Positions 8,492-49,594 of a stretch of 64,000 bases of DNA are shown piece after piece. The stretch comes from Cheiracanthium punctorium (lineage: Eukaryota > Arthropoda > Arachnida > Araneae > Cheiracanthiidae): assembly GCA_038373885.1 (NCBI GenBank), contig JAWZYV010006105.1, positions 1 through 64,000 of the forward strand, given 5' to 3'. A program made the position numbers and the translations under genes. The notes under the pieces are model-generated. The model was not told the DNA's origin and searched no databases. It saw nothing but the letters and a program-made list of their open reading frames with translations. The stretch's first letter is position 1. Each line of letters opens with the position of its first letter.

Positions 8492-8499
8492 TTACAACA
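8492..8499. repeat. Left target-site duplication of the giant palindrome
   Basis: TTACAACA directly precedes the first base of the left arm. The identical octamer in the same orientation follows the last base of the right arm. Confidence 0.9.
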
Positions 8500-8526
8500 G
8501 TAGTAGATAAATGACAGTTCTGCTCA

Positions 8527-8640
8527 TGCGGTACCATGTTAATTCTGCGGTACGCCGTACAGGTGCTTTCCCTGGGTCGAGAGAGAGAGAGGGGGGCGTG
8601 GTCGGACCGGATGTGGGGAGCGGATGCTAAGACCGGATGT
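8527..8640. promoter_or_regulatory. Subterminal repeated words at the palindrome end
   Basis: TGCGGTAC occurs at 8527-8534 and 8546-8553, and GACCGGATGT at 8605-8614 and 8631-8640, with a GA-repeat and G-run between them; the right end carries the mirror set. Clusters of short direct repeats just inside the termini are where transposases of several superfamilies bind, so these are candidate mobilisation signals. The function is inferred. Confidence 0.45.
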
Positions 8641-9119
8641 TCAAAGGGTTGATAAGAATTTTTTTCCTTTTTTTCAAATAAGGGGACTTGTAATTTTTTC
8701 AGACTTTAAGATATTTCTCAAATAAGAGGACTTGGAAAAAATTTTCAGATTGCGATGCATTCTCTCATGAAAAATAAGAGACTTTGACATAATTTTAAAT
8801 AAGCTATACTTTATGAATTAAACCTGAAATAAAAAATATTATTATAAAATGAGGACCCACCAGTCGCCCGGTAGAACTCGTCTACCGCCTCATTTCAAAT
8901 AAAAATTCTTACTGTGCCTTTCCCCATCACGCTAGACTCGCATGAATGGAGACAGGGCGTAGCACAGAGGATGCGTTGTTGTTTTTGTTTCTTTAAATAA
9001 TAATTAACTATGTGGAGCAAAGAAATGAACAACATCCCCAGGAGGATTTAGTTGTCTTTACCATTTAGTAATAGAACCAATGCGAATTGAATAAATTTTG
9101 CTTAATACATACTTCTAAT

Positions 9120-9545
9120 GTTTAGCTAATTTTTTGTATACTGATTATAGCATATATTTAATAAGTAACAGTTTACAAGAATATTAAAGTAGGGCTTTTT
9201 AAACATTTCTTCTACTGTTAGGGAAGTGAGAAAATTATACCATAGAAAGATTTTAGTACCTATAATTTTTACAAATACTAGGAGGTCTACAAACAAAACA
9301 AATCTCCCAAAAGTTTTAATTTTAAGTTAATAATTAATTTTACAACAATTTTTTTTAGCCAAGAGTTTTAATTTAAGTACTTTTAATCAAGTGTTTTTAA
9401 TTTTTAGCTAATTTTTTGTATATCCTATTTTTGTTAAGTAGTCGTTTAACATTAAAGTAAGGTTTAGGATACCCATACATTTTCTACAAATTTAATCTAC
9501 TGTTAGGCAAGTGAGAAAATTATACCATATAAGATATTTAAGTTA
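9120..9545. repeat. Diverged direct repeat pair in the outer arm
   Basis: Two segments, about 9120-9262 and 9405-9545, share TTTAGCTAATTTTTTGTATA, ATTAAAGTA, CTACTGTTAGG and AAGTGAGAAAATTATACCAT in the same order. The mirror pair lies in the right arm. They look like an old internal duplication; no function is evident. Confidence 0.6.
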
Positions 9546-9639
9546 CAAATAATGATTTGGATATAGTCTTATATTCTATTGCGAGAAAACCACTTTAGCC
9601 ATATATCCCGAAAACTCAAGTTTTTGTATACGAAATGTA

Positions 9640-9727
9640 TGAATATGCGTTAGATCCCCTTAGAAAGTCCTACCAAGACACCCCTCATCCTAGGCAGATA
9701 CCCCCGCGTGCAGGTTTGCCTTAAAAC
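9640..9727 (+). mobile_element. SINE tail embedded in the left arm
   Basis: The segment reads GCGTTAGATCCCCTTAGAAA, then AGGCAGATACCCC, then GTGCAGGTTTGCCTTAA. This is the 3' body of the tRNA-derived SINE family seen at 24403, 54240, 54728 and 56838. The tRNA head is absent, so it is a 5'-truncated copy that was present before the arm was duplicated. Confidence 0.75.
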
Positions 9728-10849
9728 ACAAACAAACAAAGTATTTATCTAAACATTTTTTTCTTACCAACACATTTTTGATAAATTCTAGACAGCGATT
9801 ATACTAGCTTATATTTTCTATAGATCAATTAGAGAAAAAAATACATTTTTAGTAATCCTACAAAATATTTTTTTACTGTATATCCCAAGTAGAGTAATTT
9901 TATAGAATTTCAATACGATACGAGTTAGACTGTTTATGTGCAAAACTCATTTCAGTTTGACTATGAAAGCATAATTTTATACATGCATTAATATTTTTAG
10001 AGGTATGCACTTAGCATATTTTATAGAAAGGTGAGCATAACTAGCACAAACTTTTAAACTAGATAGTACTATTGTTAGAAAGTTGAACTATTGGAAATAA
10101 AAATTGAAGATTCGTTTTAGCACAGTTGTATACCGCATGTACATAAATATCTTTCAATACTTAGATAGTTTAAATCACAAATCATTACTTAAACTAAAAA
10201 ATACAAGGTTTTTACTTACTTACTTGAAGACACATCATGTTAAAATCTTCGGGTCTCTGGACAAAGTACCAACATCTATACGGCTAGCAAGACCGGAACA
10301 TAGAGTAATGATTTAAAATACATTATCCCTAATTCCCGGTCCAACTAGCACATTTTCATTAATTTTTGTCTTCATATGCTGAAATAGGTATATTATTTTG
10401 ACACTAAAAACAAAACACATTTGAAGATATTAAACGCTTTAAAAGTACTTTTTTCTTATAACAATTTACCAGATTCACAATACTATTTTATGTAGGATAA
10501 AATTAGTTAGCAAGCGAAAATTTAATCTTAGTTAGAATTTACTGAAATACAAATACCATGCATGCCTTATTTTCTATTAGGAGAAAGCCCTCAAACCCCA
10601 GTTTTTGTATACAAACTGCATAAAGTACTTCTACCGATAATGCTATTAATATTAATTACACTGGATTACCCACTTAAAATTTCGCAAAACACCAAAATAC
10701 AGAAAAACATGCATTAACAATAACCAAAAAAATCACACTTAAAAGTACAACACATCAAAAGTGCAACTATAAGAACCGCATAATTATTTTCAATTAGAAT
10801 TACGGTATCAACTTATATGTAACTAAAATAATAGAAAATATTACACTTA

Positions 10850-11040
10850 CCCTGTACTTGTACACGCGAGAGGTGAAAATAACAAAAAACTCACATAATT
10901 CACAAAACAATGATTGAAGTAAAATCCACGTGCATGTGATATTGCTGATAAGAAATTTAGAGATAAGAAAGTGCCTTGAGGCTCTACAGAGCCGGTACAA
11001 TAAGAGTTGGCCAGTTTACCGATAAGATAAAACCAGGGAG
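10850..11040 (-). promoter_or_regulatory. Possible outward exon with splice donor and GATA sites
   Basis: On the minus strand of the left arm (plus strand 19814-20004 in the right arm) a short GC-richer stretch ends in AAGTACAGG|GTAAGTGTAA, a near-consensus 5' splice site. GATAAG motifs lie at about 10947, 10962 and 11021. This suggests a transcript leaving the arm outward, divergent from the main gene. A 66-codon open frame covers it (10800-11000) but is not recognised. No downstream exon could be identified. Confidence 0.3.
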
Positions 11041-11917
11041 GGTGCTAGGGGAATACCGAATTGTGGGGACACGTGTTTCATTCTACGTTCAAAAATGGGG
11101 ACTTATGGATGAAGATGTTTACTACTTAAAAACATAATCTAATTTTTACAAGCGCATTGGAACTTTGTAAAGGATATCTATTGAACACGTATTAAATAGA
11201 TTATGATTATTCTTCTGATCGACATTATATCCTAAATTAAAATATCAAAGTTAAGCTACAACGATTAATATATTTTACGTAGTTTAGGAAACTAATGAAT
11301 CATTATATTAATTTCTGTGAAACAATTAGCAAAGAGCATTATACTGAAGCATTAAAGCAAATTATTTTTGTTAAGTTTTGATAAATAACAGTAATAAATT
11401 ATAGGCATTGAAGATGAATGAGTATTCACGTATAAAATAGGTATTAAAATTATTGTTTAAAACAATTTTTACAATAATAAACTAAAATTTTTATTTAATA
11501 AAGTCATAAACTAAAATTATTAATGAAAACTTGTTAATAAATTAAACATATCAAAATTTTTACACTCAGTTTTTTTATAGACTTAAATTTTACAAAGATA
11601 TCCTTTTAATAAATTCATAAACTAAAACAATTTTTACAATAATAAACTAAAATATTTATTTAATAAATTCATAAACTGAAATTATTAATGAAAACCTATT
11701 AATAAACTAAACTGATTACTCTAAAAGATAGCTAATCACAACATATATCAGAAAAAATATAAGCAATTATAATACCTGAAAAATACCGGACAACACTCTT
11801 GTTGCATGCGGACAAAACATCGGTCAGCTCGGCTAAAGAATTCTTAGGTATCCGTTGCAGGAGAACTTACCTACGCCCAACCTACAAACTCTACAAATTT
11901 AACGGCAACTGATTTTC

Positions 11918-12178
11918 TCTTATCAGGTATCACAGATCAGATAAGAGATAAGGAAGTGACATGCGCAGAAGACACGTGATAGTGACGTGTGCAAATCTAT
12001 GTTGATTCAATATCCGCTAGGTTCGTTGGCAGGATGTGCTATTTACATTGAGTGGCAACTCTCTGTAACAGGCTAAGACAAGTTAGATGATGCAATATCT
12101 ACAGGTTTGAGGAAGGTAGAGGGCGCTTGGGTAATCACGTGATTTTTATTTATTTATTATTTTTTTAAAAGAACCAAT
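11918..12178 (+). promoter_or_regulatory. Promoter region of the left AlkB-PC4 gene
   Basis: Clustered elements lie upstream of the ATG at 12295: CTTATC and two GATAAG motifs at 11919-11951, CACGTG at 11973-11978 and 12136-12141, and a CCAAT box at 12174-12178. No good TATA box was seen. Composition is less AT-rich than the rest of the arm. Use by host factors (GATA type, bHLH E-box type, NF-Y) is an inference from motifs alone. Confidence 0.45.
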
Positions 12179-12294
12179 AGGAAGATATTTTAGTTAGATA
12201 AAGTAGGGAAGTGTTTGTTGCGAGACTCCCTTTACACTGTGTGCGCCTATACTTAAGACGTGTGTTTTAATTGATTTTCCGCCGAGTTTCAAAA

Positions 12295-13842
12295 ATGTCT
12301 TTGCTTGAATCGATCGAAAATAACTTTAACATTGAATACACTCCCGAGTTTTATACTCAAAGTGATGCTGATGTGTTGCTGCAAGAAATAATACAATTGC
12401 CTTTAGATGTAAAGCCTCTGCAAAGTATTGAAAAGGAAATTTCCCCCGAGTTTTGTACTGAAAGTGATGTTGATGTGCTACAGCAAGAATTGTTTCAGTT
12501 ACCCCTGCAAAGTAGTGAAAAGAAAATTTCCTCGACCCGTAAAGTAATTACTTTTGCTGATGAAGGAATCAATTACAGTTTACCTGGAGCAACAGTCTCT
12601 GTTTACTCTTGGATACCCATTTTGCAAAAAATACGTGAAGATCTACAGAAAGTGACAAATTATGAATTTAATATGGTACAAGTGAACTTTGGCTCTGAAG
12701 AACAACCTAAAATTGAAGATGGCAACTACGAAGATTTTAATCTAGACCTATCATCGGGTGTATGCATTCTAAGTTTTGGATCTAAACGAACTTTGGATTT
12801 TAAACCAGCGAACTGTGAAACCACTACCATTAAATTAGAACATGGTTCAATGTGTAAGATATATCCCCCAACCAACAAACTTTTAACGCATGGTATTCCT
12901 TCTGAACCTTATGTGACAGACCCGCACATTAACCTAACATTTGCCAAAATGTACATTTATGAGCCTTCCCCGAAAAGGGCAAAGTTGGACGATTGGACGG
13001 GCGATCTTTACCATAGCTTATATGCTTCTGTAAATAGTACATGGCACTTGGAAAGACTTATCTACGTTTCACTTCACGATGAAAGAACTGACTTGAAGAT
13101 TTATATTAGACAATTTATACAGAATGCCCAATTAGACTATATACCAACCGGTCAGGGAGTCGTGATGAACCCTTCCACATGGATCGAATTTATTGTAAAA
13201 CTATTAGATTTTAATATAGGTCATAGCAATAGCTCTTTTATTTGTAATAATCAATTATCTGTATTTAATGATGATGGAAAATGCATCTTACAACAAATTT
13301 ACAAAACCGCAGATTCATTCACGTTAAATCCAATTTCCTTAACACTTTTAAATGATCAAGTAAAAAAACTTTGCGAAATGAGAAATGAAATATTGGAATG
13401 CATTTTAAAAACGCTATATACGACGACCCTGCCTCATTTAATTTTAAAATTAAAGCCGCAAAAATGTAACCGCGAACCCCATTGTAATTACGATGAAGCT
13501 AAACAACAATTAATGGATATAGTACATCAGGAAATTTTTAAAAACATAGGCCGGGTTCAAGATCATTCTTCGCATAGGATACATGCCTGTTCGAATAGAT
13601 CACATATTGATGAGCGAGAGGGTCTTATAAGTAGTAAAGCATGGTTTACGGTTGACATGCCGTATATTGCAAGAGAGATATGCGAGAAAAAATGCACTTG
13701 TCATTATGACGGAGAATTTTTTTCAAACATTTTCATTGAAGACTATATGAAGTATCTTCAAAATGAGCTATTTAATTCATTTTTTCAACCGTTTTCAGAT
13801 TTTGCGAATTCCAAGGATGACAAAACATGTGTAATTATGTGA
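12295..13842 (+). CDS. AlkB-like / PC4-like fusion protein, left copy
   Basis: An intact 515-residue uninterrupted frame. ATG 12295 (A at -3) is the first in-frame ATG after a stop at 12268. Residues ~15-222 read as an ALKBH2-type fold: EFYTQSDADVLLQEI (the N-terminal segment, repeated at ~50-71), YSWIPILQKIREDLQKVT (~104-121), SFGSKRTLDF, LEHGS (H183), THGIP (H199), INLTF. The catalytic HxD is gone (first His is 183) and the Arg before INLTF is His, so dioxygenase activity is unlikely. Residues 224-232 (PSPKRAKLD) are a Myc-like NLS. Residues ~250-302 resemble PC4 (IYVSLHDER, KIYIRQF, PTGQGV, W296), with a weaker second copy at ~319-360. A Cys/His-containing tail ends in CVIM, a CaaX prenylation box. 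Domain names rest on motif reading. Nuclear DNA binding is inferred. Confidence 0.8.
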   Translation: MSLLESIENNFNIEYTPEFYTQSDADVLLQEIIQLPLDVKPLQSIEKEISPEFCTESDVDVLQQELFQLPLQSSEKKISSTRKVITFADEGINYSLPGATVSVYSWIPILQKIREDLQKVTNYEFNMVQVNFGSEEQPKIEDGNYEDFNLDLSSGVCILSFGSKRTLDFKPANCETTTIKLEHGSMCKIYPPTNKLLTHGIPSEPYVTDPHINLTFAKMYIYEPSPKRAKLDDWTGDLYHSLYASVNSTWHLERLIYVSLHDERTDLKIYIRQFIQNAQLDYIPTGQGVVMNPSTWIEFIVKLLDFNIGHSNSSFICNNQLSVFNDDGKCILQQIYKTADSFTLNPISLTLLNDQVKKLCEMRNEILECILKTLYTTTLPHLILKLKPQKCNREPHCNYDEAKQQLMDIVHQEIFKNIGRVQDHSSHRIHACSNRSHIDEREGLISSKAWFTVDMPYIAREICEKKCTCHYDGEFFSNIFIEDYMKYLQNELFNSFFQPFSDFANSKDDKTCVIM

Positions 13843-14039
13843 TGTTATTGGTGTATAACTAGTATTGCGATTGTAAAAAATATATTAAAACCATTGTGAT
13901 TATGTAGAAAAGGCATGCTTGCTTCTACAACAGTAAGATTTTACTGACTTATGCATGCTTAGTTATAGAATACTCATTGAAAAGTTATTATTTTCTTAAT
14001 TGTGTAAATAGTTTGTGTAATTTAAAATATATTTTTGTA

Positions 14040-14045
14040 AATAAA
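14040..14045 (+). terminator. Polyadenylation signal of the left AlkB-PC4 gene
   Basis: AATAAA lies about 200 nt after the stop codon and is followed ~40 nt later by the T/G-rich stretch TGTGCGTATGTGTGTTG, the classic arrangement of a pol II poly(A) site. Confidence 0.65.
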
Positions 14046-15396
14046 ACAGTTTACATATGCAAAACTTTTCTGTTTTCTTCATGTGCGTATGTGTGTTGAT
14101 TACTTGCAAAATAAAAATCTATGAAATAAAAAGTGGTAAAGGTAGACATGTTTTAAGGTTCTCGTTTTATACTTATCTTTTATAAACTACAAGGTAGAAA
14201 GTTAGAAATTTAACAAAATTTATTGAAGCATGTATTACGGATCATGAATCTACTACATAGAAATAAAATGTTTTGATTAAAATCATAAACTTAAGTGTGA
14301 TAGGTAAATTGTGTTACATGAGAATTCCCAAAGTACTAATTTTTTATAAAATGAACTTAGCTAAAAAAGTTAGTTTCCATAATTTTATAACTTAATCGAT
14401 TTTACAGGTTTTTCAAAAATAAAGTTAAGTGAGATAAAGAAACTTAGTATTTTTAAATAAAGATTTTTTAGGTGTTCTTTAATGTAAAGATCTTACCATA
14501 TTTTACTTGAAGTAACAGAATATTTTAAATCAGACACTATGTTTTTAAAACCTTAGAGTATTAACTTAGCATAGTTTTATAATTTTTATTAAGTAATGGG
14601 CTTGAATATTTTTATGAAAAATATCAACTAAGTGCACATGTTACACATTTTAGTGATTGAGATGATTATGCTTACAAATTTTAAATAAATATGCTCTTAC
14701 TTTTATACATGTGACTTGTTCAAACTAAGTATACTTTTGATTGGGATACGTTTATGAGTTCTCATAAGTTATGAAATTATTTCTCGAAAGGAACTTAGCT
14801 AATAGAACTTTGTAAATTTCGTAGAAGTAGTATGCTTAACATGTTTTTGATAAAATGGATTTAAATGTGGTACAGAAATGATCAGCTATTTTAGCATAGA
14901 TGTATAAACTTATCTTTATGTAAACCTTAACTAATTAAAAGTAATATAATTTATGTCTGTACAAAGTCAAGTACTTAGACTATTTTTCAGAATTATCAAG
15001 TAAAGGGTTTTACAAAATACTTAGTAAACTGCATTAATAGATTGTAAGTTGTAATTTTTTTCTTTTAGAAGTTTTGCACATTGGTATATTTTATGTTCTG
15101 ATAAGTCGTTGAATATGTTCTTGAAATAAACTAACATATCTGTACTTTGAAAATTTTATAGAAGTGAAGAACTTTGCTATTTTTAGAATGTTACGAACTT
15201 GATACATTTTTTCTGAAGTGCTAGATATGTGAAATTGTCTTTTTAGAAACGTTGAATTATTCAACTTAGTGCATTTCAGTTACTCTTTCAAGATAACGGA
15301 CTTAGAATTTTTTACAAATAGCAAGCTAGTAACTTGCTAAACATGCTTCTTGCAAATATTTTTAAATACCGTTCTTAAAAATTATCAAAGTTGTAA

Positions 15397-15459
15397 CTAC
15401 TAAAAAGAAATAAACAAATTAGTATATTATTTAAAAATATTTGATATTACTTAAAAATA
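15397..15459. other. 63-bp spacer at the palindrome centre
   Basis: This AT-rich stretch between the paired words CAAAGTTGTAA and TTACAACTTTG has no long self-complementarity and no gene. It would form the loop of the cruciform or of a foldback transcript. Confidence 0.9.
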
Positions 15460-16808
15460 TTACAACTTTGATAATTTTTAAGAACGGTATTTAAAAATAT
15501 TTGCAAGAAGCATGTTTAGCAAGTTACTAGCTTGCTATTTGTAAAAACTTCTAAGTCCGTTATCTTGAAAGAGTAACTGAAATGCACTAAGTTGAATAAT
15601 TCAACGTTTCTAAAAAGACAATTTCACATATCTAGCACTTCAGAAAAAATGTATCAAGTTCGTAACATTCTAAAAATAGCAAAGTTCTTCACTTCTATAA
15701 AATTTTCAAAGTACAGATATGTTAGTTTATTTCAAGAACATATTCAACGACTTATCAGAACATAAAATATACCAATGTGCAAAACTTCTAAAAGAAAAAA
15801 ATTACAACTTACAATCTATTAATGCAGTTTACTAAGTATTTTGTAAAACCCTTTACTTGATAATTCTGAAAAATAGTCTAAGTACTTGACTTTGTACAGA
15901 CATAAATTATATTACTTTTAATTAGTTAAGGTTTACATAAAGATAAGTTTATACATCTATGCTAAAATAGCTGATCATTTCTGTACCACATTTAAATCCA
16001 TTTTATCAAAAACATGTTAAGCATACTACTTCTACGAAATTTACAAAGTTCTATTAGCTAAGTTCCTTTCGAGAAATAATTTCATAACTTATGAGAACTC
16101 AAACGTATCCAAATCAAAAGTATACTTAGTTTGAACAAGTCACATGTATAAAAGTAAGAGCATATTTATTTAAAATTTGTAAGCATAATCATCTCAATCA
16201 CTAAAATGTGTAACATGTGCACTTAGTTGATATTTTTCATAAAAATATTCAAGCCCATTACTTAATAAAAATTATAAAAATATGCTAAGTTAATACTCTA
16301 AGGTTTTAAAAACATAGTGTCTGATTTAAAATATTCTGTTACTTCAAGTAAAATATGGTAAGATCTTTACATTAAAGAACACCTAAAAAATCTTTATTTA
16401 AAAATACTAAGTTTCTTTATATCACTTAACTTTATTTTTGAAAAACCTGTAAAATCGATTAAGTTATAAAATTATGGAAACTAACTTTTTTAGCTAAGTT
16501 CATTTTATAAAAAATTAGTACTTTGGGAATTCTCATGTAACACAATTTACCTATCACACTTAAGTTTATGATTTTAATCAAAACATTTTATTTCTATGTA
16601 GTAGATTCATGATCCGTAATACATGCTTCAATAAATTTTGTTAAATTTCTAACTTTCTACCTTGTAGTTTATAAAAGATAAGTATAAAACGAGAACCTTA
16701 AAACATGTCTACCTTTACCACTTTTTATTTCATAGATTTTTATTTTGCAAGTAATCAACACACATACGCACATGAAGAAAACAGAAAAGTTTTGCATATG
16801 TAAACTGT

Positions 16809-16814
16809 TTTATT
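16809..16814 (-). terminator. Polyadenylation signal of the right AlkB-PC4 gene
   Basis: This is the mirror AATAAA (TTTATT on the + strand), with the same T/G-rich downstream element. The two genes converge, and their poly(A) sites are about 2.8 kb apart across the palindrome centre. Confidence 0.65.
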
Positions 16815-17011
16815 TACAAAAATATATTTTAAATTACACAAACTATTTACACAATTAAGAAAATAATAACTTTTCAATGAGTATTCTATAACTAAGCATG
16901 CATAAGTCAGTAAAATCTTACTGTTGTAGAAGCAAGCATACCTTTTCTACATAATCACAATGGTTTTAATATATTTTTTACAATCGCAATACTAGTTATA
17001 CACCAATAACA

Positions 17012-18559
17012 TCACATAATTACACATGTTTTGTCATCCTTGGAATTCGCAAAATCTGAAAACGGTTGAAAAAATGAATTAAATAGCTCATTTTGAAGAT
17101 ACTTCATATAGTCTTCAATGAAAATGTTTGAAAAAAATTCTCCGTCATAATGACAAGTGCATTTTTTCTCGCATATCTCTCTTGCAATATACGGCATGTC
17201 AACCGTAAACCATGCTTTACTACTTATAAGACCCTCTCGCTCATCAATATGTGATCTATTCGAACAGGCATGTATCCTATGCGAAGAATGATCTTGAACC
17301 CGGCCTATGTTTTTAAAAATTTCCTGATGTACTATATCCATTAATTGTTGTTTAGCTTCATCGTAATTACAATGGGGTTCGCGGTTACATTTTTGCGGCT
17401 TTAATTTTAAAATTAAATGAGGCAGGGTCGTCGTATATAGCGTTTTTAAAATGCATTCCAATATTTCATTTCTCATTTCGCAAAGTTTTTTTACTTGATC
17501 ATTTAAAAGTGTTAAGGAAATTGGATTTAACGTGAATGAATCTGCGGTTTTGTAAATTTGTTGTAAGATGCATTTTCCATCATCATTAAATACAGATAAT
17601 TGATTATTACAAATAAAAGAGCTATTGCTATGACCTATATTAAAATCTAATAGTTTTACAATAAATTCGATCCATGTGGAAGGGTTCATCACGACTCCCT
17701 GACCGGTTGGTATATAGTCTAATTGGGCATTCTGTATAAATTGTCTAATATAAATCTTCAAGTCAGTTCTTTCATCGTGAAGTGAAACGTAGATAAGTCT
17801 TTCCAAGTGCCATGTACTATTTACAGAAGCATATAAGCTATGGTAAAGATCGCCCGTCCAATCGTCCAACTTTGCCCTTTTCGGGGAAGGCTCATAAATG
17901 TACATTTTGGCAAATGTTAGGTTAATGTGCGGGTCTGTCACATAAGGTTCAGAAGGAATACCATGCGTTAAAAGTTTGTTGGTTGGGGGATATATCTTAC
18001 ACATTGAACCATGTTCTAATTTAATGGTAGTGGTTTCACAGTTCGCTGGTTTAAAATCCAAAGTTCGTTTAGATCCAAAACTTAGAATGCATACACCCGA
18101 TGATAGGTCTAGATTAAAATCTTCGTAGTTGCCATCTTCAATTTTAGGTTGTTCTTCAGAGCCAAAGTTCACTTGTACCATATTAAATTCATAATTTGTC
18201 ACTTTCTGTAGATCTTCACGTATTTTTTGCAAAATGGGTATCCAAGAGTAAACAGAGACTGTTGCTCCAGGTAAACTGTAATTGATTCCTTCATCAGCAA
18301 AAGTAATTACTTTACGGGTCGAGGAAATTTTCTTTTCACTACTTTGCAGGGGTAACTGAAACAATTCTTGCTGTAGCACATCAACATCACTTTCAGTACA
18401 AAACTCGGGGGAAATTTCCTTTTCAATACTTTGCAGAGGCTTTACATCTAAAGGCAATTGTATTATTTCTTGCAGCAACACATCAGCATCACTTTGAGTA
18501 TAAAACTCGGGAGTGTATTCAATGTTAAAGTTATTTTCGATCGATTCAAGCAAAGACAT
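17012..18559 (-). CDS. AlkB-like / PC4-like fusion protein, right copy
   Basis: This copy encodes exactly the same 515 residues as the left copy, including the degenerate AlkB-like core, Myc-like NLS, the two PC4-like modules and the CVIM end. It runs convergently toward the palindrome centre and ends 1.55 kb from it. Base changes elsewhere in the arms, against complete protein identity here, point to purifying selection, ongoing arm-to-arm gene conversion, or simple youth of the duplication. If both are transcribed past their poly(A) sites, complementary RNA would form. The protein partner and target are unknown. Confidence 0.8.
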   Translation of the reverse strand: MSLLESIENNFNIEYTPEFYTQSDADVLLQEIIQLPLDVKPLQSIEKEISPEFCTESDVDVLQQELFQLPLQSSEKKISSTRKVITFADEGINYSLPGATVSVYSWIPILQKIREDLQKVTNYEFNMVQVNFGSEEQPKIEDGNYEDFNLDLSSGVCILSFGSKRTLDFKPANCETTTIKLEHGSMCKIYPPTNKLLTHGIPSEPYVTDPHINLTFAKMYIYEPSPKRAKLDDWTGDLYHSLYASVNSTWHLERLIYVSLHDERTDLKIYIRQFIQNAQLDYIPTGQGVVMNPSTWIEFIVKLLDFNIGHSNSSFICNNQLSVFNDDGKCILQQIYKTADSFTLNPISLTLLNDQVKKLCEMRNEILECILKTLYTTTLPHLILKLKPQKCNREPHCNYDEAKQQLMDIVHQEIFKNIGRVQDHSSHRIHACSNRSHIDEREGLISSKAWFTVDMPYIAREICEKKCTCHYDGEFFSNIFIEDYMKYLQNELFNSFFQPFSDFANSKDDKTCVIM

Positions 18560-18675
18560 TTTTGAAACTCGGCGGAAAATCAATTAAAACACACGTCTTA
18601 AGTATAGGCGCACACAGTGTAAAGGGAGTCTCGCAACAAACACTTCCCTACTTTATCTAACTAAAATATCTTCCT

Positions 18676-18936
18676 ATTGGTTCTTTTAAAAAAATAATAA
18701 ATAAATAAAAATCACGTGATTACCCAAGCGCCCTCTACCTTCCTCAAACCTGTAGATATTGCATCATCTAACTTGTCTTAGCCTGTTACAGAGAGTTGCC
18801 ACTCAATGTAAATAGCACATCCTGCCAACGAACCTAGCGGATATTGAATCAACATAGATTTGCACACGTCACTATCACGTGTCTTCTGCGCATGTCACTT
18901 CCTTATCTCTTATCTGATCTGTGATACCTGATAAGA
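18676..18936 (-). promoter_or_regulatory. Promoter region of the right AlkB-PC4 gene
   Basis: This is the mirror of the left promoter: CCAAT box (ATTGG at 18676-18680), CACGTG sites at 18713-18718 and 18876-18881, and the GATA cluster at about 18903-18936. Confidence 0.45.
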
Positions 18937-21126
18937 GAAAATCAGTTGCCGTTAAATTTGTAGAGTTTGTAGGTTGGGCGTAGGTAAGTTCTCCTGCAAC
19001 GGATACCTAAGAATTCTTTAGCCGAGCTGACCGATGTTTTGTCCGCATGCAACAAGAGTGTTGTCCGGTATTTTTCAGGTATTATAATTGCTTATATTTT
19101 TTCTGATATATGTTGTGATTAGCTATCTTTTAGAGTAATCAGTTTAGTTTATTAATAGGTTTTCATTAATAATTTCAGTTTATGAATTTATTAAATAAAT
19201 ATTTTAGTTTATTATTGTAAAAATTGTTTTAGTTTATGAATTTATTAAAAGGATATCTTTGTAAAATTTAAGTCTATAAAAAAACTGAGTGTAAAAATTT
19301 TGATATGTTTAATTTATTAACAAGTTTTCATTAATAATTTTAGTTTATGACTTTATTAAATAAAAATTTTAGTTTATTATTGTAAAAATTGTTTTAAACA
19401 ATAATTTTAATACCTATTTTATACGTGAATACTCATTCATCTTCAATGCCTATAATTTATTACTGTTATTTATCAAAACTTAACAAAAATAATTTGCTTT
19501 AATGCTTCAGTATAATGCTCTTTGCTAATTGTTTCACAGAAATTAATATAATGATTCATTAGTTTCCTAAACTACGTAAAATATATTAATCGTTGTAGCT
19601 TAACTTTGATATTTTAATTTAGGATATAATGTCGATCAGAAGAATAATCATAATCTATTTAATACGTGTTCAATAGATATCCTTTACAAAGTTCCAATGC
19701 GCTTGTAAAAATTAGATTATGTTTTTAAGTAGTAAACATCTTCATCCATAAGTCCCCATTTTTGAACGTAGAATGAAACACGTGTCCCCACAATTCGGTA
19801 TTCCCCTAGCACCCTCCCTGGTTTTATCTTATCGGTAAACTGGCCAACTCTTATTGTACCGGCTCTGTAGAGCCTCAAGGCACTTTCTTATCTCTAAATT
19901 TCTTATCAGCAATATCACATGCACGTGGATTTTACTTCAATCATTGTTTTGTGAATTATGTGAGTTTTTTGTTATTTTCACCTCTCGCGTGTACAAGTAC
20001 AGGGTAAGTGTAATATTTTCTATTATTTTAGTTACATATAAGTTGATACCGTAATTCTAATTGAAAATAATTATGCGGTTCTTATAGTTGCACTTTTGAT
20101 GTGTTGTACTTTTAAGTGTGATTTTTTTGGTTATTGTTAATGCATGTTTTTCTGTATTTTGGTGTTTTGCGAAATTTTAAGTGGGTAATCCAGTGTAATT
20201 AATATTAATAGCATTATCGGTAGAAGTACTTTATGCAGTTTGTATACAAAAACTGGGGTTTGAGGGCTTTCTCCTAATAGAAAATAAGGCATGCATGGTA
20301 TTTGTATTTCAGTAAATTCTAACTAAGATTAAATTTTCGCTTGCTAACTAATTTTATCCTACATAAAATAGTATTGTGAATCTGGTAAATTGTTATAAGA
20401 AAAAAGTACTTTTAAAGCGTTTAATATCTTCAAATGTGTTTTGTTTTTAGTGTCAAAATAATATACCTATTTCAGCATATGAAGACAAAAATTAATGAAA
20501 ATGTGCTAGTTGGACCGGGAATTAGGGATAATGTATTTTAAATCATTACTCTATGTTCCGGTCTTGCTAGCCGTATAGATGTTGGTACTTTGTCCAGAGA
20601 CCCGAAGATTTTAACATGATGTGTCTTCAAGTAAGTAAGTAAAAACCTTGTATTTTTTAGTTTAAGTAATGATTTGTGATTTAAACTATCTAAGTATTGA
20701 AAGATATTTATGTACATGCGGTATACAACTGTGCTAAAACGAATCTTCAATTTTTATTTCCAATAGTTCAACTTTCTAACAATAGTACTATCTAGTTTAA
20801 AAGTTTGTGCTAGTTATGCTCACCTTTCTATAAAATATGCTAAGTGCATACCTCTAAAAATATTAATGCATGTATAAAATTATGCTTTCATAGTCAAACT
20901 GAAATGAGTTTTGCACATAAACAGTCTAACTCGTATCGTATTGAAATTCTATAAAATTACTCTACTTGGGATATACAGTAAAAAAATATTTTGTAGGATT
21001 ACTAAAAATGTATTTTTTTCTCTAATTGATCTATAGAAAATATAAGCTAGTATAATCGCTGTCTAGAATTTATCAAAAATGTGTTGGTAAGAAAAAAATG
21101 TTTAGATAAATACTTTGTTTGTTTGT

Positions 21127-21214
21127 GTTTTAAGGCAAACCTGCACGCGGGGGTATCTGCCTAGGATGAGGGGTGTCTTGGTAGGACTTTCTAAGGGGAT
21201 CTAACGCATATTCA
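21127..21214 (-). mobile_element. SINE tail embedded in the right arm
   Basis: This is the mirror copy of the left-arm SINE fragment. The same truncation point shows that the insertion predates, or was copied by, arm duplication or gene conversion. Confidence 0.75.
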
Positions 21215-22149
21215 TACATTTCGTATACAAAAACTTGAGTTTTCGGGATATATGGCTAAAGTGGTTTTCTCGCAATAGAATATAAGACTATATCCAAATC
21301 ATTATTTGTAACTTAAATATCTTATATGGTATAATTTTCTCACTTGCCTAACAGTAGATTAAATTTGTAGAAAATGTATGGGTATCCTAAACCTTACTTT
21401 AATGTTAAACGACTACTTAACAAAAATAGGATATACAAAAAATTAGCTAAAAATTAAAAACACTTGATTAAAAGTACTTAAATTAAAACTCTTGGCTAAA
21501 AAAAATTGTTGTAAAATTAATTATTAACTTAAAATTAAAACTTTTGGGAGATTTGTTTTGTTTGTAGACCTCCTAGTATTTGTAAAAATTATAGGTACTA
21601 AAATCTTTCTATGGTATAATTTTCTCACTTCCCTAACAGTAGAAGAAATGTTTAAAAAGCCCTACTTTAATATTCTTGTAAACTGTTACTTATTAAATAT
21701 ATGCTATAATCAGTATACAAAAAATTAGCTAAACATTAGAAGTATGTATTAAGCAAAATTTATTCAATTCGCATTGGTTCTATTACTAAATGGTAAAGAC
21801 AACTAAATCCTCCTGGGGATGTTGTTCATTTCTTTGCTCCACATAGTTAATTATTATTTAAAGAAACAAAAACAACAACGCATCCTCTGTGCTACGCCCT
21901 GTCTCCATTCATGCGAGTCTAGCGTGATGGGGAAAGGCACAGTAAGAATTTTTATTTGAAATGAGGCGGTAGACGAGTTCTACCGGGCGACTGGTGGGTC
22001 CTCATTTTATAATAATATTTTTTATTTCAGGTTTAATTCATAAAGTATAGCTTATTTAAAATTATGTCAAAGTCTCTTATTTTTCATGAGAGAATGCATC
22101 GCAATCTGAAAATTTTTTCCAAGTCCTCTTATTTGAGAAATATCTTAAA

Positions 22150-22312
22150 GTCTGAAAAAATTACAAGTCCCCTTATTTGAAAAATTGTTAAAGTCTGAAA
22201 AAATTACAAGTCCCCTTATTTGAAAAATTTGTTAAAGTCTGAAAAAATTACAAGTCTCCTTATTTCAAAAATATCTTAAAGTCTGAAAAAATTACAAGTC
22301 CCCTTATTTGAA
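22150..22312. repeat. 43/44-bp tandem array specific to the right arm
   Basis: The word TCTGAAAAAATTACAAGTC recurs at about 22151, 22194, 22238 and 22281, a spacing of 43-44 bp, while the left arm has a single equivalent unit near 8676-8710. The three extra units account for the 131-bp excess of this arm. Looser copies of the core AAATAAGRGGACTT also occur nearby in both arms. Confidence 0.85.
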
Positions 22313-22485
22313 AAAAAGGAAAAAAATTCTTATCAACCCTTTGAACATCCGGTCTTAGCATCCGCTCCCCACATCCGGTCCGACCACGCCCCCCTCTCTC
22401 TCTCTCGACCCAGGGAAAGCACCTGTACGGCGTACCGCAGAATTAACATGGTACCGCATGAGCAGAACTGTCATTTATCTACTAC

Positions 22486-22493
22486 TTACAACA
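22486..22493. repeat. Right target-site duplication of the giant palindrome
   Basis: TTACAACA directly follows CTACTAC, the last bases of the right arm, and is identical to 8492-8499. It overlaps the inner boundary of the 190-bp host TIR. Confidence 0.9.
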
Positions 22494-24755: not shown

Positions 24756-26269
24756 TATCTATATAAATAAAGCAAAGTGCAAATTGTCCGTTAGTTAGTT
24801 TGTCTGCACCTCGCGTAGCTCCGAAACGGGTGATCGTAGACCTACCAAATTTTGTATAGAAATTCTCCAGGACGGGTCCCGGCAGACCTCGAAACGATTT
24901 TTTCGAAATTCGAATTATTTTAGGAAATATCTATAAAAAAACATGTCGCAAAAGGCTAATTTTTGCTCCGCCATTTCGCAATTGTAACCCCGCAGTGGAA
25001 AAAGAGAAAATATAGCATGTCTAGGTTTACCGTATTTGGCAAGTTTATTAAATGATTCAGATTCTTGAAGTCAAAATAAAAGAATAACGATTTTTTTGTT
25101 TAGATTATTTGCAAGGTTGTTTTTTTAATTAAAATATCATGTGCATGTGAAATCGGAGCAGGAATGAAATATTTTATACTCAAAAGAAAAATAAGATTTG
25201 GAAATTTTCCGAGACTAAAATGTGCAACTTTTTAATTTGGCGAAAAATAAAATGGTTGATGTGCGATTTTGAGGAGATGATTCTAACGCTTGTTTTTAAA
25301 TATTCTAATGAGGAAATATTGGTTATCATGTTTGCATAAACATCTTTTTCTTTCAATAAAAATTAGCTGATGCATTTGTATAGCTTTATATCTTTTAATT
25401 CATAGTATAATTCTGATGATTAAATATTATCTTTAAACATCTACCACTTTATAAAATACTGTTTGTTTGGTTTTTTAGTTTGTTTGGTTAGTAGTTTTTT
25501 ATTTGCGTTGATTCTAAAGATCAATTAAAGTTAAAATAAACTTTAACGCTACCTATACTTTCCTATACCTGCGCTGGCAAATATCCAAAGTGTAGTATAA
25601 CTGCTATAATGGCATAGTTAACGCCACCAAATATTTCTACTAGTAGCAGATACTCCAGCTGGACCGAACCGGCTTTAAAATAATCTGCATTTTAATTATT
25701 TTTCATTTTCAAAATACTGGAATCTAACATTTTGGAACTCGAGGTTTAGATTTACCCTGCTTGCATTTTGCCAGATCGTACCTAATGCCAAAATGGCGCT
25801 TTTAAAATCAGTTACAATTAGTTTTTCTGTTTTGGAAAAACGAATAATCCCTAATTCTAAACTCCTGTTGTCTAAGGTCTAAGCTAAGCTAAATATTTGA
25901 AAATTGTCAACTTTGTGTGACACACTTTGAGCTATTTATTTCATGTACTCTTTAATTTGGCGTAAAACTGGTGTAATTCTACTTCATGTTTGTCAATTTC
26001 AACGTGGAAGTGCTTTGTTGCAAAGGAATGAATGACTTTATGCCAAATCTGGCAACCATTATGTTTATTTTTTCAGTTTTTTATTAATATCTTCTAAAAT
26101 AATTCGATTTTCGAAATTTAAGTCAGCTTATCAGGTTCCTCTGAATTTTTCGAATCAGTGGACACCTTAGTCAAAACTCAAATTCCCACGGTTTAGGAGG
26201 AGATAGCCGAACAAGCTCTTGACAGCGGCGGTGGCGTCAGTGGTTACTTTTTTTTTTTTAGAATAGAGA
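24756..26269 (-). repeat. Helitron-like repeat DNA
   Basis: At 25600-26269 the minus strand is clearly related to 48386-49050: TCTCTATTCTAAAAAAA start, TGACAGC, CACCTAACCGTGGGGA-like and CGGAAAATTCCGAGGAAC-like blocks in the same order. The lower-coordinate edge begins TCTATATAAATAAAGC and continues with CGTAGCTCCGAAACGGGTGA, wording common at Helitron 5' ends. Whether this is one element or two joined ones is unclear, and no CTAG-type end was located. Confidence 0.4.
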
Positions 26270-44863: not shown

Positions 44864-45399
44864 CGCGTATCCTCTTTCCTTTTTCTTCTTATGTGTGTTT
44901 TTTACAAAGTTTTTTAATTACTTTATAAGTTACACATGTTTGGCAGAAAAAAAAATGCATTTATTGCGCATTTGTGTAGAAAAGGAAAAAAAAAACACAA
45001 TTTGTGCATATGAGAAAAAAAAAGAATAAGAAAAGGTGTTTTCTTCAAAGGAAATCATTTTCAGAAGGGGGTTGTGGTTTCCACGGACGGCCAGCAACGT
45101 TGAACACCTTTGAGGCATGGAGTCAATGGGGCTATTAATCACGAGTTGGGGTATTCTGTCCCACTCTTCCAGAAGAGCTCTTTCCAGTTCTTGGAGAGTT
45201 TGTGGGGGTGGTTGGCGGACAGCAACTCGTCTTCCTAGAGCGTCCCAAACGTGCTCTATTGGATTCATGTCTGGAGAACACGCTGGCCATTCCATTCGTA
45301 CGATTCCTTCCTCGAAAAGGAAATCCTCCACCAGGTTAGCACGATGTGGCCTGCAGTTATCGTCCATTAAAATGAAGTCATCTCCGATTGCTCGGGGCC

Positions 45400-46609
45400 T
45401 TCGCAATTAGTAACGGGCCTGCTCGTGTATTTTGATGAGTCATCCAAAGAGGCTAGGATGCTCGAGTCTTCACGTATACATCAGGCATTTCTTAAGTTTC
45501 CCAGTGCTTTCAAACGTTATTTAATGTAGTTTTAAGTAGTAATTGTGTTACTAATTCAAGTACGAACTCATTATTAATTTGTTTGCTATGATACATATTG
45601 GCATTAAGAAAATAGATGCATATAATTTGAAGGAAAAACTAAGTAGCGCTTACTCTCGTGATTCACGATTGCTTATTTTAGTTTCACAAGTGGATATTTA
45701 ATGTACTCTAAAATAACTAAATACAGAAATGAGAAAGACATTTTATAATGAATATTTCATTAATGTAGTCGTATTTCCTACGTTATTTTAAACAATTTAA
45801 CATTAACAAATGATGTATTAAAGCGCATTTCAGTGTTTTCGGGATATCCTGTATATCCCGAAGAGTCCCGAGAGTATTGGAGAAAATTGATAAAATACGC
45901 TCTATAGCGCGATCCGTGAATTAATTATTCTTTAATAAAGACATTTCATGCATTATATGTTATTCTTTTGTCGCTTTCTCAATCGAACTTTGGAATTGAG
46001 CAAGCATAATGAACGCTTGTACAAAATATTAACTACATTTGAAGTTTCTATATAAACGGGCAAAAATCAATAATTTATAATTTAATTTCTGTACTGTACC
46101 AAATGTAAGTCTGAATCACACAATCAAGGCATATATAACTGATAATTAACATTTTCAACTGGCAAAATTAAATTGTCTAACTAGTATCACAACGTCATGC
46201 TTATTTACAAGAATAAACTACACAAGTAATACGATTTCCGATTAAAATAATTTATTTATAAATAACACATGAATAATTATTCACTAAACCTAATTTACAT
46301 ACATAATTTTAGAATTTCTAAATAAATTATAAAAGTGTTCACTTACCTTTACATTCAGAACAAAATGTTCGAATTTTATGATAAATTTTTATGAAAGAAA
46401 ACGGCGCAAGATTAACAAAACGATTAGCTACATCTAAAGTTCTTTAGTACGACAAAACTATAAAAAAAATGTTTTAAAATAATAAAATAATATAATATTT
46501 AGAATACTTAGAATAACAAAATAGAACACTGCGAATGGCGAAAACAGGCCTCAATGATTAACTCGTTTTTAGCGGTTGCAACTCATGAGCAGGCCCATTG
46601 CTTAGCGAC
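45400..46609. mobile_element. 1.2-kb insert in the Tc1 transposase
   Basis: The left edge is TTCGCAATTAGTAACGGGCC and the inverted right edge GTCGCTAAGCAATGGGCC, both followed by TGCTC; flanks are GGGGCC and GGCCCC. The Tc1 reading frame resumes on either side. The interior is AT-rich with no frame. The class is unknown; a GC-rich 4-6 bp duplication is suggested but ambiguous. Confidence 0.6.
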
Positions 46610-48385: not shown

Positions 48386-49594
48386 TCTCTATTCTAAAAA
48401 AAGTGACGGCTGCTGTCAAAAGCTTCTTCGGCTTCACCTAACCGTGGGGATTTGAATTTCTAGAAACATGTCCACGGATTCGGAAAATTCCGAGGAACTT
48501 GATAAGCTCACTTAAATTTTGCAAATCGAATTATTTTAGAAGATATTAATAAAAAAAACTGAAAAAATAAAACATAATGGCTGACAGATTTGGCATAAAA
48601 TCATTCATTCCTTTGCAAAAAAGCAATTCAAAGTATGTAGAATCGTGAAATTGACAAACATGAAGTAGAATGACACCCATTTTACGCCAAATTAAAAAGT
48701 ATATGAAATAAATAACTCAAAGTGTGTTAGACAAAATGGACAATTTTCAAATAGTAAGTTCGCTTACACAACAGGAGTTTAGAATGAGCAATTATTCGTT
48801 TTTTCAAAACAGAATAACTAATTGTAACTGATTTTATGACTGCGCCATTTTGGCATTTGGTGCTATCTGGCAAAATGGTATCTTTCCAAACAAGTTCAAT
48901 CTAAACCGCGAATTCAAAAAATGTTAGAACCCGCCAATATCTCGAAAATGTAAAATAATTAAAATGCAGATTATTTTAAAGCCGGTTCGGTCGAGCTGGA
49001 GTATTTGCTACCAGTAGAAATATTTGGTGGCGTTAACTATGCCATTATAGCAGTTATACTGCATTTTGGATATTTGCCAGAGCGGCGAGATGATATAATT
49101 CGAGGTGCTAAATACGCCAATCTGCAAAGGATTATGTATATGAAAATATGGATAACGGTTTTCCGGGAACCTTACATGGGCAGTAATTATAGGTTGTGAG
49201 CATATGTAAATCGCCAAATAATGAAAAGTCGCCGTTGATGGCAAGCTCTTACGTAGTTTTTAACAAAGAAAACATATAAAGTACTGTTTTCTTAAAGCTA
49301 ATTATTAACTATACGTATACGCAAGTCGCCAAATTATGAAAATTCGCCATGATTGGCTAATACGCAAGGTGTTTCATGGGTTTCACGTAATTAAAAATAG
49401 TGAGAAGTTTAAATTTTTATGTTCCAAGCAACATGCAAGAAACAAGCAATGTGTAGCTCGATAACATTCTAGCTGATCCAACCATTGGGTTTTGTTTGTT
49501 GAAATTATGCCTTTTATACGAATAAGCCCTATTAGGGGCCCGAATGCCTCATACGAAAAGCGAGCTTAATGAGTCTAGGGGCCGTGGCCCCTAG
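48386..49594 (+). mobile_element. Non-autonomous Helitron
   Basis: It starts TCTCTATTCTAAAAAAAGTG and ends with a GC-rich hairpin AGGGGCCGTGGCCCCT closing on CTAG, followed by T: the 5'-TC / hairpin / CTAG-T pattern of Helitrons. The hAT transposase frame resumes near 49640. The first 660 bp are related to 25600-26269. The expected A before the 5' end is not seen (T instead). Confidence 0.55.

Follow-up and report, generated by a model that had tools for sequence, protein, structure and literature searches.

A fully palindromic, apparently non-autonomous Maverick-type element with one gene per arm in the spider Cheiracanthium punctorium

What kind of mobile element consists almost entirely of its own inverted repeat? 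The question is raised by a stretch of 64,000 nucleotides from the spider Cheiracanthium punctorium (positions 1 to 64,000 of contig JAWZYV010006105.1, GenBank assembly GCA_038373885.1; hereafter, the window), in which two arms of about 7 kb, each carrying the same gene, face one another across a short spacer. We find that this is a palindromic, apparently non-autonomous form of a Maverick-type (Maverick/Polinton) element; the palindromic form is new, and the Maverick/Polinton kind is already known. Our preferred explanation, to which we give a probability of about three in four, is that the element is a non-autonomous, fully palindromic member of the Maverick/Polinton type that depends on Maverick proteins for its replication and integration, which would pass through self-folding strands.

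Boundaries and structure

The features of the palindrome are as follows.

8493-8498, no strand: left target-site duplication (TSD), TACAAC; the 6-bp rule is the same in all nine copies read at both ends
8499-22486, no strand: entire palindromic element, 13,988 bp, with ends AGTAGT...ACTACT
8499-8523, plus strand: terminal motif AGTAGTAGATAAATGACAGTTCTGC, set below against the ends of elements with a protein-primed DNA polymerase B (pPolB)
8499-15396, plus strand: left arm
8527-8553, plus strand: paired variable repeat, left, composed of TGCGGTAC (8527-8534), CATGTTAA (8535-8542), and TGCGGTAC again (8546-8553)
12295-13842, plus strand: 515-amino-acid (aa) gene of the left arm, pointing toward the center; ALKBH2-like N-terminal domain, possible PC4-like domain, Cys-containing C-terminal part
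15397-15459, no strand: unpaired center (loop), 63 bp
15460-22486, minus strand: right arm
17012-18559, minus strand: 515-aa gene of the right arm, its protein identical to that of the left arm
22120-22315, minus strand: 44-bp tandem repeat, 4.5 copies, longer than the left-arm array
22432-22458, minus strand: right-arm counterpart of the paired variable repeat
22462-22486, minus strand: right-end terminal motif
22487-22492, no strand: right TSD, TACAAC

Global alignment of the left arm with the reverse complement of the right leaves five substitutions in 6896 aligned positions and two gaps, one of 131 bp within the 44-bp tandem array and one of 2 bp. A terminal 18-mer, searched with up to three mismatches, matched the window twice, at the two ends of the element, and none of 100 shuffles reached two matches. 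The original prediction of a 14-kb palindrome at 8500-22485, with near-identical arms of about 7 kb, a 63-bp spacer, terminal repeats that account for over 99% of the element, and an intact gene in each arm, holds in all of these respects except its boundaries, which fall one base short on each side. The first A and the last T belong to the element because all nine copies read at both ends have AGTAGT...ACTACT with differing 6-bp TSDs. The 8-bp duplication that had been proposed was a one-copy coincidence, in which the true 6-bp TSD was joined by one base of the element (its initial A or final T) and by one flanking base that matched by chance (the T at 8492 on the left, the A at 22493 on the right). 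The word TTACAAC also occurs where the right arm borders the spacer (15460-15466). A target preference for TTACAAC was ruled out, because the eight other copies read at both ends have different TSDs.

Other copies and their termini

The genome searched comprises 2.53 Gb in 15,171 contigs. Two more copies, L004 and L013, turned up when 20 contig starts were sampled blind at 10 kb apiece, and each of them is cut off by the start of its contig. A search with 1 kb across the left end of the element gave 3085 unconfirmed first-look candidates, of which the best 40 were scored, several as convergent pairs. Nine copies, namely the window copy and eight convergent pairs, were read at both ends; the eight are a non-random set, drawn from those 40, which rank highest in similarity to the window's end. 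Every one of the nine has AGTAGT and ACTACT ends with a direct 6-bp repeat outside, and the nine TSDs are all different: TACAAC (window), CACATT, TACGTA, CCTACA, TAGGAA, CGTAAG, AGTGAT, CACGTA, and AAGGTG. The other eight copies measure 5890, 6510, 12,963, 13,255, 13,723, 14,077, 14,293, and 14,463 bp. The motif (AGT)2//(ACT)2 is present at 18 of 18 ends of these nine copies, in L004 and L013, and at 19 of 20 further top-scored ends, L078 being the one that differs. The window's exact 25-base terminus, a count that covers one version of a variable end, has 105 matches in the genome, and the reversed-pattern control has none. Among 100 termini listed, 52 form 26 convergent pairs spaced 9,094-16,520 bp apart (median 14.4 kb). 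The element is real, mobile, and multicopy, as had been proposed, and the search for further copies with the same termini, on which the original prediction had staked the element's existence, found many of them. The window copy is young, judged by its arms.

Four of the convergent pairs (C6188, C7221, C8329, and C11539) have a near-equal larger length of 16,400-16,520 bp and are perhaps a subfamily with extra sequence. Two short palindromic copies, C7893:102876-109385 (6.5 kb) and C11325:366075-371964 (5.9 kb), have their own centers and 6-bp TSDs.

In PMC8097293, a study of vertebrate Mavericks, (AGT)2//(ACT)2 is the commonest end motif and TSDs are 6 bp long; the spider element has this terminal motif, and its TSD is of this length in nine of nine copies. 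Since ends and TSD together are the signature given there, we conclude that no new and unrelated superfamily with giant terminal inverted repeats (TIRs) is involved. The ends had been thought to match no superfamily and to mark a new giant-TIR or foldback class; with one base restored on each side, they are Maverick ends accompanied by a 6-bp TSD. The other guess made for this locus, a viral-like linear genome integrated with a TSD, proved apt.

A foldback derivative of a superfamily with 8-bp TSDs (Mutator, P/Galileo, or hAT) is very improbable. Although long arms and a subterminal tandem repeat recall Tetris and Galileo as described in PMC4079207 and PMC4168063, with TSDs of 8-10 bp and 7-8 bp, respectively, the duplication here is 6 bp in nine of nine copies, against 7-11 bp for foldbacks of Mutator, P, and hAT elements, and the ends read AGTAGT...ACTACT. 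Foldback of a Mutator, P, or hAT element is thus ruled out by TSD length.

The idea that the inverted duplication is an assembly artefact from chimeric reads is scarcely credible. Both blind-sample copies lie at contig starts, and such elements therefore do trouble this assembly; against a chimera, the flanks differ on the two sides, direct 6-bp TSDs occur in all nine copies, 26 convergent pairs share the same version of the terminus among the 100 listed, and the arms carry real differences. We rejected the assembly chimera on the direct TSDs with differing flanks.

Paired variable repeats near the ends

Just inside the terminal 26 bases, a word of 7-8 bases precedes CATGTTAA and recurs shortly after it. 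The ends compared were those of the window, L004, L013, L030-L045, and L071-L090; apart from the first three, the 31 copies in the word test (28 of 31) are top-scored matches of the left-end search. With L078, L084, and the right end of C3984 dropped from the count because their anchors are changed, the 7-mer word recurs exactly in 24 of 29 copies while differing between copies, in which it reads TGCGGTAC, GCCGGTGC, GCCGCAGC, GGGGGTGC, TGCGCAGC, and others. The mean best word match is 6.79, compared with 5.00 when partners are re-dealt and a maximum of 5.69 in 5000 shuffles, which take no account of the relatedness of copies, several of which have the same word. The paired variable repeats thus behave in an iteron-like manner. 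The terminal bases themselves look modular, with AGATAAA, AAGGAAA, or AAAGAAA followed by TGACAG, CGAGAG, TAAGAG, or TGGGGG.

Arm identity and palindrome centers

Arms were compared over their outermost 600 bp or so, which gave 489 aligned positions in the window copy and 600-619 in the others. Within a copy, the left arm is 98.2-100% identical to the right in nine of nine cases; between copies, left arms are 90.6-94.7% identical in all 36 comparisons (median 93.2%). Further, 23 inverted gene pairs occur among 84 scored gene matches, and scores are equal in the two arms in nine of the 23; when partners were shuffled 20,000 times, no shuffle had as many. Either the arms of a given copy descend from a recent common ancestor or something keeps them similar, and because arms are more alike within copies than between them, each palindrome is homogenized or recopied.

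The distance from gene to gene is 4674-4816 bp in 18 of the 23 pairs and 3246-3912 bp in five, and as these distances are mostly uniform, the main junction region is mostly inherited. The center of the palindrome was seen in five of the eight other copies; it lies outside the sequence examined in C10106 and C3984 and partly inside it in C12517. The junction is not always the same: The window has its 63-bp loop, C7617 and C5618 have one junction in common with each other, in which the other side reaches further, and the junctions of C6953 and C11325 differ again. The 6.5-kb copy of C7893 turns at arm position about 2976, its arms symmetric within about 6 bp. By our reasoning, such a near-symmetric short palindrome would arise more easily by fold-back of a strand than by two independent breaks.

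The same element could owe its arm identity to chromosomal gene conversion after insertion instead of to copying during replication, a possibility that we take seriously but regard as the less probable one. Palindromes elsewhere are known to undergo conversion, and conversion between chromosomal arms would also keep them alike. Moreover, four of the nine copies have arms that are only 98.2-99.0% identical over about 600 bp, so arms do drift. The argument on the other side is that the differing centers and the near-symmetric C7893 copy resemble fold-back copying, not deletions with two breakpoints.

The gene in each arm

Each arm holds one long open reading frame (ORF), of 523 codons counted from a TTG or 515 if the ATG at 12295 is taken as the start, and its protein has the same sequence in both arms. 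From 8500 to 15428, that is, the left arm with half of the spacer, no other frame exceeds 73 aa from stop to stop. With no second long ORF there, no pPolB gene was found, and for the same reason no retroviral-like integrase gene (no dedicated search was made, and a broken or split remnant is possible) and no capsid, ATPase, or protease gene (again without a dedicated search). The absence of a visible transposase, part of the original prediction, agrees with this. The element is therefore not a member of the autonomous Maverick class and would presumably use Maverick helpers.

A protein search of the genome gave 3405 unconfirmed first-look candidates, of which the best 84 were scored. All 84 copies of the gene are full length with 98%-100% identity, and 81 are free of internal stops. 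Between the window and L013, 201 codons differ by six synonymous and four amino-acid changes, with nonsynonymous divergence (dN) of 0.0085 and synonymous divergence (dS) of 0.048; dN below dS, in these small numbers, suggests constraint on the gene.

The N-terminal part of the protein matches human ALKBH2 (PDB 3rzg), residues 76-221, with an E-value of 3e-16 (1.7e-25 for a two-row profile), and about 290 residues follow this domain. Searches of the protein database gave the same two proteins each time: P0001, a 50% identical relative encoded on a 1963-base contig, and P0002, an ALKBH2-domain protein. For the Pfam family 2OG-FeII_Oxy_2, the window protein scores 25 bits, below the cut-off of 31.2, and P0001 scores 57.2, above it. 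In the alignment, both proteins have Tyr in place of an Asp and His in place of an Arg; the first His is kept in P0001, and the window protein has Gly there. We take the Asp and the first His to be iron ligands and the Arg to be a contact of 2-oxoglutarate, and with those assumed roles, the HxD...H ligands and the 2-oxoglutarate Arg of an active ALKBH2 dioxygenase are not intact in the aligned protein. Judging from these replacements, the ALKBH2-like domain is probably dead.

The middle part may be a PC4-like domain that binds single-stranded DNA (ssDNA). The match is weak: The best E-value is 0.0067, against PDB 6ycs with the two-row profile, and Pfam PC4 (PF02229) gives the window protein an E-value of 0.17 and 11.9 bits with a cut-off of 25 (E 0.0094 on a piece of the protein typed with four stray residues). 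P0001 alone has no Pfam PC4 match up to an E-value of 1 and an E-value of 0.1 against 6ycs, and an AlphaFold model from two rows was not used, its mean pLDDT (predicted local distance difference test) score being 28.6. The C-terminus, CVIM (window 13828-13839), resembles what we take to be a prenylation signal; P0001 has no CVIM ending. In a phage collection, AlkB matches occur in two records of one Acinetobacter phage, and a scan of viral contigs gave 121 stretches that matched a pattern, none of which was confirmed.

A new autonomous class, in which replication or transposition is the work of the ALKBH2/PC4-like protein itself and the likeness of the ends to those of Mavericks is ancestral or convergent, would fit a gene that is the only long ORF of the element, free of stops in 81 of the best 84 copies scored and with dN below dS. 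We nevertheless consider it unlikely, since searches of Pfam and PDB sequences found no nuclease, transposase, or polymerase domain in the 515-aa protein, the 6-bp TSD and (AGT)2 ends are as reported for Mavericks in PMC8097293, and the genome has Maverick polymerase genes of its own.

Maverick-type polymerase genes in the genome

A search of the genome for the Pfam family PF03175 gave 34 matches over the cut-off, some genes having more than one, among the best 91 of 364 candidates, which were scored; no match on the window's contig is among those 91. The polymerase protein at L055 has 537 relatives; among the best 120 of these, the ones that bear names are spider proteins (Uloborus, Larinioides, Araneus, and Trichonephila) and the PolB of a Parasteatoda adintovirus. 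Diverse PolB genes of Maverick/adintovirus type are present at L046-L057, several with long open frames, and L049 and L050, like L052 and L053, look like near-identical copies.

The link to a helper draws on five pPolB loci. At three of them, an ACTACT end followed by unlike flanks lies 0.8-0.9 kb beyond the polymerase stop, a distance read in C6745 and C5453 and estimated for C7250; each of the three was read at one end, C5453 over 12 terminal bases. A related subterminal motif is present in two of the three. Reading inward, C6745 has AGTAGT-GAGAGAT-TGACAGTACTGC where the window has AGTAGT-AGATAAA-TGACAGTTCTGC, at equal offset, and 18 of the window's terminal 25 bases are alike in C6745 and again 18 of 25 in C7250. 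As a background, 142 AGTAGT-anchored 25-mers were compared with C6745, of which 103 scored 8-13 and 27 scored at least 16; this is not a clean control, because the set includes ends of the element itself.

These one-ended loci and that background weigh against our reading, as do gene conversion as another way of keeping arms alike, the palindrome centers outside or partly outside the sequence examined, the missing second long ORF, and the weak PC4 match. To them must be added that two of the five pPolB loci (C9866 and C9804) have no ACTACT in the piece examined, and that likeness is lost beyond the terminal 25 bp or so, with 23 of 44 positions alike between the window and C6745 and 23 of 50 between the window and C7250. 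Further, the 1.5 kb flanking each of 12 pPolB loci have no match to the arm except one of 91 bp at 78%, in two of the 12, and for 48 of the 100 termini listed, the list gives no exact partner on the same contig. The 91-bp match, in L052 and L053, corresponds to arm position 1141-1225 (window about 9640-9724).

Proposed replication and significance

Where a replicon depends on nothing but its ends, it can take the form of a self-complementary strand folded into a hairpin, as in adenovirus-type, bidnavirus, and parvovirus systems. We propose that the element is a satellite whose inverted terminal repeat grew to fill its whole length, perhaps after a replicon of Maverick type had copied one of its ends, together with an accessory gene, and folded back on itself. 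Replication would start from the element ends by the Mavericks' protein-primed DNA polymerase, and insertion would be carried out by their retroviral-like integrase. Displaced single strands would fold into hairpins of roughly 7 kb closed by the short central loop, and the arms could be equalized in each round by replication that passes round this loop, by snap-back copying, or by mismatch repair within the hairpin. The ALKBH2/PC4-like protein may bind or protect the folded strands or the paired repeats near the ends. Taken in its most specific form, the proposal describes a self-folding hairpin-genome satellite of Mavericks in which the arms are recopied in every cycle, an ssDNA-handling protein with a dead ALKBH2 fold is self-supplied, and the paired end repeats are an iteron-like specificity code by which different helper Mavericks recognize it; this version is speculative, and we put it forward only tentatively.

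Maverick DNA replication and the existence of satellites are hard to test, and a young, multicopy palindrome with Maverick ends is a natural object for doing so. The arms could date each insertion, as long terminal repeats do, and the palindrome centers may record fold-back copying. The single conserved gene hints at the needs of a hairpin satellite. In addition, the element may explain breaks in the assembly, both blind-sample copies being at contig starts.

Elsewhere in the window, a second inverted repeat pair (25542-26193 and 48440-49112) is 83%-92% complementary in pieces, its two members lying about 22-23 kb apart. An ORF at 2467-2919 has a MADF domain (Pfam E 6.6e-12) and is perhaps from another transposon, and a fragment at 44930-45406 resembles, by eye, what we take to be the end of a Tc1/mariner transposase.

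Comparison with known systems

With Maverick/Polinton elements (polintoviruses, adintoviruses), as PMC8097293 describes them, the spider element shares the 6-bp TSD, the (AGT)2//(ACT)2 ends, a similar length (intact vertebrate elements are 12.7-24.6 kb), and genes that point to the center, as Maverick genes generally do; Maverick-type pPolB genes are present in the same genome. It differs from them in that, with no long ORF besides the one in each arm, it lacks an intact gene for pPolB, integrase, ATPase, protease, or capsid; its inverted repeats measure 6.9-7.0 kb, as opposed to the 46-1447 bp (mean 402) given there; and it carries two copies of one gene that is not among the Maverick genes of that source. 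Maverick particles, according to the same text, have not been observed so far. The foldback-like Tetris and Galileo (PMC4079207, PMC4168063) resemble it in very long inverted repeats, internal tandem repeats, and the frequent lack of a transposase; unlike them, it has a 6-bp TSD, Maverick-type ends, and an intact conserved gene in each arm. Literature searches brought up, among the matches listed and judged by title and the opening of the abstract, no palindromic Maverick and no AlkB/PC4 gene in a transposon.

The 515-aa protein is like ALKBH2 dioxygenases in its match to the human protein and unlike them in its replaced residues, the presumed ligands, and in its roughly 290 extra residues. 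Finally, palindromic defective genomes and rolling-hairpin genomes of linear DNA viruses are likewise self-complementary and capable of forming hairpins; in contrast to these, the palindrome described here is chromosomal, multicopy, and gene-bearing.

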